Assembly (NCBI RefSeq): GCF_003955735.1
Contig: NZ_CP034464.1
Location: 4,402,001-4,466,000 of the forward strand
DNA from: Undibacterium parvum
Lineage (GTDB): Bacteria; Pseudomonadota; Gammaproteobacteria; Burkholderiales; Burkholderiaceae_D
Length of the DNA stretch: 64,000 bases
Direction: 5' to 3'
Shown here: positions 30,248 through 52,964 of the stretch, piece by piece
How the letters are laid out: each line of letters starts with the position of its first letter
How positions within the stretch are numbered: position 1 is the stretch's first letter
The notes under the pieces: generated by a model
Told to the model about the DNA's origin: nothing
Databases searched by the model: none
Seen by the model: only the letters and a program-made list of their open reading frames with translations
Translations under genes and position numbers: made by a program

Positions 30248-30419
30248 TTAGCGGACAGGCAGGCTGGAAATGGAATGAACACCTTCCACCCGGATGAAAG
30301 AGTAACGGCAGTGCAATTGGGCAATAGTGAGAAAAAAAGAAGGATTCTCACAACCCAACGGCATCGATGTGCCAAAGTGGAGCTGTAACACCAAACCACT
30401 TGAGAGAAGGAGAATCCAA

Positions 30420-31502
30420 ATGAATCATACCGTAGACGGCATCGACATTGCCAAGAGCGTATTTCAGTTGCACTGGGTTGATCAGGAAACCGGTGAGATT
30501 TTCAATAAACAGCTCAAACGCGCGAAATTTCTCGACTATTTTGTGAACCTAACATCCTGCCTGATCGGCATGGAAGCCTGTGGTGGTGCGCAGCACTGGG
30601 GCCGCAAATTGACGGCAATGGGGCATCACGTCAAGCTCATGCCAGGTAAAGCGGTCAAGGCTTTTGTGATGGGCAACAAGAATGACGCCGCCGATGCGCG
30701 TGCCATCAGGATGGCCGTACAGCAGCCTGGTATCAAAGCGGTGGCGCTTAAAACAGAAGCACAACAAGCGGTGCTGGCACTGCACCGGATGCGTCAGCAA
30801 CTGATTAAATTTCGCACGATGCAAAGTAATGAACTGCGCGGTTTATTGATGGAATTTGGCGAAGTCATGGCGCTCGGTCGTGCCGCGCTCAATGCGGCTA
30901 TGCCGGGTATTCTGGCGCGCCTCGATGAGCGTTTGCCGGCCTTTCTGATCGAGACACTACGCGAACGCTGGAACATGCTCAGTACCCTCGATCATCAGGT
31001 CGCAGACATTGAGCGACGCTTACAGACCTGGATGAAAGAAGACCAGGCCAGCCAAGACATCGCAGAAATACCCGGTGTGGGCTTAATCACCGCCACCGCG
31101 GTTGTCGCTACCGTGGGTAATGCCAACGTGTTCACCTCGGGACGGCAATTCGCTGCCTGGTTGGGGATCGTTCCCGGGCAAACTGGCACGGGTGGCAAGG
31201 TGCGATTGCTAGGCATCAGCAAGCGCGGCGACAGCTACTTACGCACGCTGCTGATCCACGGTGCCCGATCTGTTCTTGAGCATAGCAAGGAGCCGAGCGC
31301 CTGGTTACAAGGGATCAATCCGCGGCGGCCAAAAAATGTCGTGGTCGTGGCACTGGCGAATAAAATGGCCAGGACAATCTGGGCAATTCTGGCGCACGGA
31401 AAAAAGTATGATCGTGGGCATGTCAGTGTCAAACCGGCCGACTTACCCACCGCGGCGAGCGTTCATGGTCTTGTGATGGACCACGCCCGCCGCCGTGGAT
31501 AA
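30420..31502 (+). CDS. IS110-family DEDD transposase (recombinase)
   Basis: 360 residues. The RuvC-like DEDD domain has D9 (GIDIAKSVFQLHWVD), E52 (IGMEACGG) and D89/D92 (NKNDAADARAI). The C-terminal Transposase_20 domain has the helix-hairpin-helix block EIPGVGLITATAVV and the nucleophile serine region FTSGRQFAAWLGIVPGQTG. The ATG at 30420 has AGGAGA ten bases upstream; an earlier in-frame ATG (30327) is inside the left end and lacks support. The enzyme moves the element by a circular intermediate guided by an RNA from the element itself. No frameshift or stop is seen. Confidence 0.93.
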   Translation: MNHTVDGIDIAKSVFQLHWVDQETGEIFNKQLKRAKFLDYFVNLTSCLIGMEACGGAQHWGRKLTAMGHHVKLMPGKAVKAFVMGNKNDAADARAIRMAVQQPGIKAVALKTEAQQAVLALHRMRQQLIKFRTMQSNELRGLLMEFGEVMALGRAALNAAMPGILARLDERLPAFLIETLRERWNMLSTLDHQVADIERRLQTWMKEDQASQDIAEIPGVGLITATAVVATVGNANVFTSGRQFAAWLGIVPGQTGTGGKVRLLGISKRGDSYLRTLLIHGARSVLEHSKEPSAWLQGINPRRPKNVVVVALANKMARTIWAILAHGKKYDRGHVSVKPADLPTAASVHGLVMDHARRRG

Positions 31503-31610
31503 GTATACGGCATTGCATGACTGAGTTTGAGCTCCAAAAGGAGTCAGTGGTAAGGCAAGACAAAGAAGTTCATAGTTTGCGTAAGGCTATTTTAGTGTGA
31601 TGGCAAATAG

Positions 31611-31750
31611 GTCAGACCGTGATTCACCAAACCTGTATGCGGGTTAGGGCTAACAGCCCGTCCTGGAAATGAGGCGTGAGTCAGCAGATTCCATCGGGGC
31701 CCGCAGGGTATTTACCTGCACTAAGGCCGGATATAAAACTGCAGCTTTAC
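31611..31750 (+). ncRNA. Candidate bridge RNA (seekRNA) of the IS110 element
   Basis: The region folds by eye into two loops. Stem TGATTCAC (31620-31627) with GTGAGTCA (31676-31683, one G-U) closes loop 1. Loop 1 holds ATGCGGGTT (31637-31645), the reverse complement of the right flank AACCCGCAT (31802-31810), and CTGGAAATG (31663-31671), identical to the left junction (30264-30272); a GGGC-TAACA-GCCC hairpin lies between them. Stem GCAG (31684-31687) with CTGC (31739-31742) closes loop 2. Loop 2 holds ATTCCAT (31688-31694), complementary to the left end (30270-30276), and ATATAAA (31731-31737), identical to the right end (31797-31803). Exact RNA ends are not known. Confidence 0.65.
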
Positions 31751-31803
31751 CTATTTAATAAAACATAAAAAATACCTTGGCAAATGGAAGGTGTTCATAT
31801 AAA

Positions 31804-31820
31804 CCCGCATGGAATATGCG
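31804..31820. repeat. REP-like palindrome, copy 3, right arm (split by the IS)
   Basis: CCCGCATGGAATATGCG, the partner of 30231-30247. Between here and the next gene (32008) I see no supported gene. A 67-codon frame at 31809-32012 starts inside the REP arm and lacks a ribosome site. The segment near 31939-31958 (rich in GGCCCGACCCC) resembles the GGGGTC...CTTG repeats at 34933 and 36488 read on the other strand. Confidence 0.7.
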
Positions 31821-52732: not shown

Positions 52733-52828
52733 GGCGGGCCCCTGCGCATTGCGGCATGGCCAATCTGGTCAGGTCGGGAACGAAGCAGCCACAGTCATTT
52801 CCCGTAAGTGCCGCAGATCAGGCTCGCC
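52733..52828 (+). ncRNA. ffs: Signal recognition particle 4.5S RNA
   Basis: The apical SRP loop is clear: GGTCAGGTCGGGAACGAAGC followed by AGCCACAG. The ends GGCGGGCC (52733-52740) and GGCTCGCC (52821-52828) pair to close the long hairpin. The RNA binds Ffh to target nascent membrane proteins. Size (about 96 nt) fits the small bacterial form. It lies between ubiD and the patatin gene; exact ends may differ by a few bases. Confidence 0.9.
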
Positions 52829-52964
52829 TACTTTCCCCTCTAGCTCAACTACTCTTGTTGAACTCTATTAAACTTAAAAGAACAATTATTCCTTGGTCAT
52901 GCTAATTGCAGGGGCTAGCGTGACCTTTATATTTCCGTTCTCTGTCTTAAGTACAATCAAAAAT

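Follow-up and report, generated by a model that had tools for sequence, protein, structure and literature searches.

In a 64,000-nt stretch of the Undibacterium parvum genome (hereafter the window), we identified an insertion sequence (IS) of the IS1111 group that very probably carries, downstream of its transposase gene, a bridge RNA or seekRNA with target guides aimed at a dispersed host palindrome and donor guides holding the junction of the element's own ends. This small RNA appears to aim the element at one spot of a much-repeated host DNA repeat, and in many relatives the guides fit gene starts instead of the repeat. The bridge RNA had been proposed earlier from the letters of the window (the sequence-only reading); that proposal is confirmed, the observation being real and correctly read. 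The features discussed below are, all on the + strand:

30264 to 30270, + strand: left target half CTGGAAA of the host palindrome (from uninterrupted sites of the same genome)
30271 to 31803, + strand: IS1111-group insertion sequence (from three copies compared with uninterrupted sites)
30275 to 30288, + strand: left subterminal inverted repeat ATGAACACCTTCCA (inverted repeat search; 14/14 with 31785 to 31798)
30420 to 31502, + strand: transposase/recombinase of the DEDD type, 360 aa from the ATG at 30420 (PF01548, PF02371, NF033542)
31605 to 31756, + strand: predicted bridge RNA/seekRNA with two guide loops (fold; covariation in 43 sequences)
31620 to 31683, + strand: target-binding loop with its closing stem (7/7 consensus helix pairs changed on both sides)
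31637 to 31645, + strand: right target guide (RTG) ATGCGGGTT (9/9 with its own flank; 0/43 other flanks equal)
31647 to 31659, + strand: hairpin GGGCTAACAGCCC between the target guides (100% of cells paired; 2/4 consensus pairs changed on both sides)
31663 to 31669, + strand: left target guide (LTG) CTGGAAA (5/6 scored positions with its own flank; 2/43 other flanks equal)
31688 to 31694, + strand: right donor guide (RDG) ATTCCAT (complement of ATGGAAT in the left end; weak covariation, above all permutations)
31731 to 31737, + strand: left donor guide (LDG) ATATAAA (sense of the right end; 27/44 perfect over 7 nt)
31785 to 31798, + strand: right subterminal inverted repeat TGGAAGGTGTTCAT (inverted repeat search)
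31804 to 31812, + strand: right target half CCCGCATGG of the host palindrome (from the copies compared with uninterrupted sites)

The transposase matches NF033542 (IS110 family RNA-guided transposase) with 337 bits and contains both expected domains, the DEDD/RuvC-like N-terminal domain (PF01548) and the C-terminal domain (PF02371). An upstream GTG at 30327 is likewise in open frame with it. Residues D9, E52, D89, and D92, which are taken for the catalytic DEDD residues, do not vary in the protein alignment (60 of 60, the window's included). The sequence GIVPGQTGTG at residues 249–258 (pattern G-I-V-P-n4-T-G) fits the C-terminal motif G--P----S(t)G published for the IS1111 group (PMC11187229). 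The subterminal inverted repeats, 14 bp long with zero mismatches, lie inside the 7–17 bp range published for this group (PMC11208160), and a non-coding stretch of 282 nt extends downstream of the transposase gene, from its stop codon to the right repeat. These two features place the element in the IS1111 group. Its ends are ambiguous within an AAA common to 30268–30270 and 31801–31803. The nearest relative, L072 from an Undibacterium MAG, encodes a transposase 74% identical to that of the window; the sole named relative among those seen is IS884 (67% identity). A second IS1111-type transposase of the same genome (L042, G000:C1:229683-230687), 48% identical and with an open frame, has its own ends and a downstream RNA-like stretch, as judged by eye.

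Three near-identical copies of the element are present in the genome, which is a single contig of 4.91 Mb. Over 1,523 positions compared, one of the two other copies differs from the window element by one substitution and the other by none. All three break into a dispersed palindrome at the same point, the junction of its loop and right arm, and uninterrupted native sites of the same genome read CTGGAAACCCGCAT. Across the insertion, the order is CTGGAAA, then TGGAATG...CATATAAA, then CCCGCATGG. Comparison of the three copies with uninterrupted sites revealed no target duplication beyond the common AAA. One copy (L003, G000:C1:2162749-2164310) has an extra A at its right junction (CATATAAAACCCGC), which possibly arose by slippage in the AA(A) core; the sole close palindrome variant with four A in this genome (G000:C1:3313761) has two other mismatches.

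The 16-mer target GCTGGAAACCCGCATG occurs uninterrupted at 38 exact places among the matches listed, at 83 places of the genome with at most one mismatch, and at 312 with at most three, vs 17 when the pattern is reversed. A consensus built from 26 distinct exact sites, GCGCATATCCCATGCGG-loop-GGCTGGAAACCCGCATGGAATATGCGC, folds as a hairpin. Only two of these 26 sites fall within an ORF of 120 aa or more, vs 1,096 of 1,400 random positions from the same loci, so that the palindrome is mostly intergenic. By its hairpin consensus, its 312 near-matches, and this ORF count, it is REP-like: palindromic, extragenic, and present in many copies. Among the 43 genomes of the genus, the 16-mer is found with at most one mismatch at 17 to 101 places in G000, G006, G014, and G025, and at 0 to 4 in the other 39, a patchy distribution that would reflect a recent or patchy expansion. 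Three PF01797 (Y1_Tnp) matches in the genome (L152–L154, at G000:C1:2766789, 3570020, and 1270043) are possibly REP-associated tyrosine transposases, which could move the palindrome. The idea that L072 is aimed at a different part of this palindrome family found no support in a pattern test of three genomes; in its own genome, G006, the pattern gave 3+3 matches vs 5+0 for the reversed pattern.

Bridge RNAs have been predicted in 93.0% of IS1111 elements (PMC11208160). SeekRNAs described to date measure 70–100 nt. The four guide strings and the 8-base stem described in the sequence-only reading were all found where it had put them. It had set the RNA at 31611–31750; the predicted fold is slightly longer and ends with the helix 31605–31612/31749–31756. 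This outermost helix belongs to the window's own fold only and is absent from the consensus. The target-binding loop is closed by eight pairs, one G-U included (31620–31627/31676–31683). Within it, the RTG is antisense and pairs with top-strand AACCCGCAT, and the LTG is sense and pairs with the bottom strand. This arrangement, with the antisense right guide first and the sense left guide second, had been noted in that reading and agrees with the published IS1111 order, in which the top-strand match lies 5' of the bottom-strand match (PMC11187229). The uninterrupted site is matched by the RTG at 9/9 positions and by the LTG at 7, the two target matches overlapping at AA. Rfam, at gathering thresholds, gave no match at the bridge RNA locus, and no site passed in a sigma-70-like promoter scan of the right end. 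An unrelated Rfam match, the bacterial small SRP RNA (RF00169, 74 bits), lies at 52733–52831 of the window.

The left target guide had been read as a 9-mer, CTGGAAATG (31663–31671). However, the TG that follows CTGGAAA is nearly constant in the family: AATGAGG ends 41 of the 44 distinct loops, and the flank joined to the left end gives AATG in 40 of 44. Since AATG is near-constant and the uninterrupted target is CTGGAAACC, only the seven letters CTGGAAA pair with the target. The 9-mer read as the LTG is therefore not fully informative, and the calculation from two independent 9-mers was too generous. The family test across 44 loops reported below is independent of that calculation.

Covariation of the stems in homologous right ends had been proposed as a check of the RNA. 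We aligned by structure 43 of the 44 distinct loops, the window's included; L089 was left out, L088 being nearly the same. Covariation is present, with changes on both sides in 16 of the 29 consensus pairs. Overall, 98.8% of 1,247 cells are paired in the consensus structure. None of 500 shuffles was as high on any of five structure measures, and sliding the structure by one to three columns lowered pairing to 29–42%. Folded alone, the window RNA has a z of −1.06, and 30 of 200 shuffles equalled or bettered it; the support for the structure is thus comparative.

Relatives were taken from a scan of genome contigs (the best 80 of 305, with 56–74% identity over the best segment). From 83 loci plus the window, 23 in which the left end, the right end, or the loop could not be recognised were removed, leaving 61, and L045, found in G006 and the same locus as L072, was dropped, leaving 60. 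Guides were scored with motif-defined ends and one locus per distinct loop, giving 44 loops with the window's; among the 16 unscored loci, 13 have the loop of a scored locus and three (L110, L140, and L151) lack a full flank. The RTG scores 7.48 of 9 with its own flank vs 4.08 with other flanks (best of 20,000 permutations, 4.95), and the LTG 5.27 of 6 vs 3.03 (best permutation of 20,000, 3.70). For both guides, none of 20,000 permutations, which ignore relatedness, fitted the 44 loops as well, and the result was again 0/20,000 for both in the 25 loops away from Shine-Dalgarno/start sites. For the window's flank, the LTG taken alone is unspecific. The flanks of the two other insertions in the genome, a comparison proposed with the original reading, match the guides of the target loop. 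Donor guides were scored in the same way. The LDG matches the right end at 6.61 of 7 vs 5.86 (0/20,000; best permutation 6.18), perfectly in 27 of 44 loops, and the RDG matches the left end at 6.32 of 7 vs 5.97 (0/20,000; best permutation 6.25), perfectly in 18 of 44. These permutations too ignore relatedness, which matters most for donor guides, the RNA and the ends being inherited together; as relatedness is kept in, the RDG result is weak.

Recognition of the palindrome by the transposase protein alone, the guide matches being by-products, would suit a structured target such as this one, and before bridge RNAs were described the transposases themselves had been suggested to be responsible for REP specificity (PMC1525189). 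We nevertheless consider it very unlikely, because guides track flanks in 44 distinct loops, the window's RTG is equalled by none of the 43 other flanks, and closely related transposases such as those of L099 and L105, 95% identical, have different guides together with different flanks. The RTG and LTG repeat short pieces of the flanks, as would relics of a target captured into the right end and devoid of guide function. However, the matches are in opposite senses and keep a constant register within a structure that shows compensatory changes, and a single guide pair is found at several insertion sites (L096/L098/L099; L123/L125/L126/L127; L133/L134), which leaves such relics a negligible chance. 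That the three copies spread with the palindrome, by hitch-hiking or inter-repeat recombination rather than by guided insertion, might be suspected from the left flank of L003, nearly identical to that of the uninterrupted site L020 elsewhere, so that some flanks are duplicated. The outer flanks and palindrome variants of the three copies differ, whereas the break point is the same, and we regard this origin as extremely improbable.

Guided insertion, the reading that we retain, can be described by analogy with characterized elements. IS1111 and IS110 elements form a circle with joined ends, and their RNA-binding recombinase uses pairing of target and donor loops for recombination at a short core (PMC11187229, PMC11208160). 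From the work on IS1111 elements and IS621, we infer circle formation, RNA production, binding, and strand exchange for the window element. It would excise as a circle with its right and left ends joined, the presumed donor junction being CATATAAATGGAATG. The RNA-loaded recombinase would grip this junction via the donor loop, with ATATAAA in sense and ATTCCAT in antisense, and the target loop, with antisense ATGCGGGTT and sense CTGGAAA, would locate CTGGAAACCCGCAT in the dispersed palindrome. Recombination would then take place at the common AA(A) core, with no target duplication.

Many relatives are inserted at a different type of site. After removal of L110 and L121, with too little right flank, 58 insertions (57 relatives and the window) had both ends and enough flank for a count of start sites; 22,200 random positions from the same flanking DNA served as control. 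In 35 of 58, the start codon of an ORF of 50 aa or more lies within 14 nt of the right end (control, 21.9%), a Shine-Dalgarno-like motif is present within the 10 nt that precede the left end in 28 of 58 (control, 3.4%), and both are found in 27 of 58 (control, 0.8%). Counted by distinct loop, 19 of 46 are inserted between a Shine-Dalgarno-like motif and a start codon. The start-site loci are L074, L076, L077, L078, L096, L098, L099, L105, L112, L113, L114, L117, L118, L119, L123–L128, L131, L133, L134, L137, L139, L141, and L149. The start codon lies 6–9 bases past the element end in 26 of the 27, at 7 bases in 15 of them; the exception is L127, with an upstream ATG at 1 base and another ATG in the flank at 6. 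About half of the insertions are without the start-site pattern, those of the window element and L072 among them. Beside the window element, no Shine-Dalgarno-like motif of the list used is present, and the ATG of the palindrome opens 67 codons only. At L124, the ORF just downstream resembles an IS110-type transposase, the element being apparently inserted at the start site of another; the ORF beside the L076 and L113 insertions is presumably IS21-like.

Start-site insertions mostly have matching letters in the guides of their bridge RNA. AGGA, GGAG, or GAGG is present in the guides of 22 of 47 loops, and a start at 5–10 bases was found in 24 of 28 insertions with such a guide vs 8 of 30 others (Fisher p = 6e-6, counting related elements, which are not independent). 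Eight loops have several usable copies: five are at start sites in all copies (13 insertions: L077/L078, L096/L098/L099, L113/L118, whose flanks are nearly the same, L123/L125/L126/L127, and L133/L134) and three in none (7 insertions).

We also examined 11 plasmid loci from 60 listed (1,243 records), seven of them with both ends. Two of the seven, L158 and L162, have a Shine-Dalgarno-like motif on the left side and are followed, after 8 and 9 bases, by the start of an annotated gene, the genes being stbB and a ParB-family gene. At L164 an annotated gene begins at 15 bases and no such motif is present; at L160 an unannotated ATG lies at 8 or 9 bases, again with no motif of the list used; L155, L161, and L163 have none of the start-site features. 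Three hundred genomes of the order provided only two new loci for replication of the start-site result. In this wider set, 13 loci were parsed, L203 having no right end found and six no recognisable loop. L172 is a start-site insertion with the guide letters and flanks of L112, possibly from the same genome, and we do not treat it as independent. At L173, L197, L201, L204, and L205, no ORF start was found (ORFs of 50 aa or more). The last three, in a single genome (G356), have guides one or two letters apart and flanks that vary around one common position, which is suggestive of small natural re-aiming.

If start-site guides are indeed used, the left guide in this branch would carry Shine-Dalgarno letters (AGGAG, GAGGA, CGGAGG) and the right guide would pair with the spacer and with the opening letters of the start codon. 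The element would then be placed within a gene's 5' leader, in the same sense as that gene and under the control of its promoter. The palindrome of the window, GGAAA-CCCGC-ATGG, has the spacing found at start sites (GGAAA-n5-ATG), a geometry that suggests re-aiming from a start site. FastTree placed L072 as the sister of the window element (support 0.967), and the well-supported neighbouring branch (0.986) holds many start-site insertions; the nodes joining the two branches, at 0.38 and 0.48, are too weak to give the direction of change. L072 is away from any Shine-Dalgarno/start site, and this makes a simple descent of the window element from start-site elements less likely. We propose only tentatively, at somewhat less than even chances, that the window element comes from an IS1111 branch programmed against translation starts and was later re-aimed at an intergenic palindrome with the geometry kept. 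A "gene-start" guide would here have turned, in nature, into a "safe repeat" guide for an abundant intergenic palindrome.

The window provides a clean, fully readable natural bridge RNA together with its target, the same target in uninterrupted form, and three insertions; the element belongs to a group whose guides vary between close relatives. Start-site guides, if true, would explain in general and testable terms how an element with high site specificity can insert at many different sites, and they would bear on the choice of natural recombinases that insert cargo before genes. We found no report of start-site targeting by such elements in the literature searched (preprints, most subscription journals, and supplements were outside it). 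A term search of PMC11187229 and PMC11208160 found no "Shine"; "start codon" and "ribosome binding" occur once each, in PMC11187229, both unrelated to targets.

The closest described systems are the IS1111-type seekRNA elements ISEc11, ISKpn4, ISPa11, and ISPst6 (Siddiquee et al. 2024, PMC11187229). As predicted for the window, their RNA lies downstream of the transposase; it likewise has two short matches of opposite sense, the top-strand match first, that overlap in the target, as reported for ISEc11, and the elements have subterminal inverted repeats and cause no target duplication. The target and guide letters of the window element differ from theirs. IS621 (Durrant et al. 2024, PMC11208160) likewise has target and donor loops, left and right guides overlapping at the core, and insertion in REP sequences. 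It differs in that its RNA, of the IS110 type, is in the left end, upstream of the transposase gene, and its transposase matches that of the window significantly in the C-terminal part only (E 1.9e-7). The guide order of IS110-type elements, tested for ISEc21, is the reverse of that in the window (PMC11187229). Insertion into a dispersed extragenic palindrome, as here, was described for all counted copies of ISPa11, ISPpu9, ISPpu10, and ISRm19 (6/6, 7/7, 7/7, and 4/4, respectively), in palindromes different from that of the window (Tobes and Pareja 2006, PMC1525189). IS884, on plasmid pHG1 of Cupriavidus necator H16, has the same RNA layout and a readable loop, with target guides and flanks that differ from those of the window. 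For IS1111 and IS110 elements, the order of the guides, the position of the RNA, and insertion into palindromes have already been published; the apparent start-site programming in the relatives is the less expected and more interesting part of these findings.
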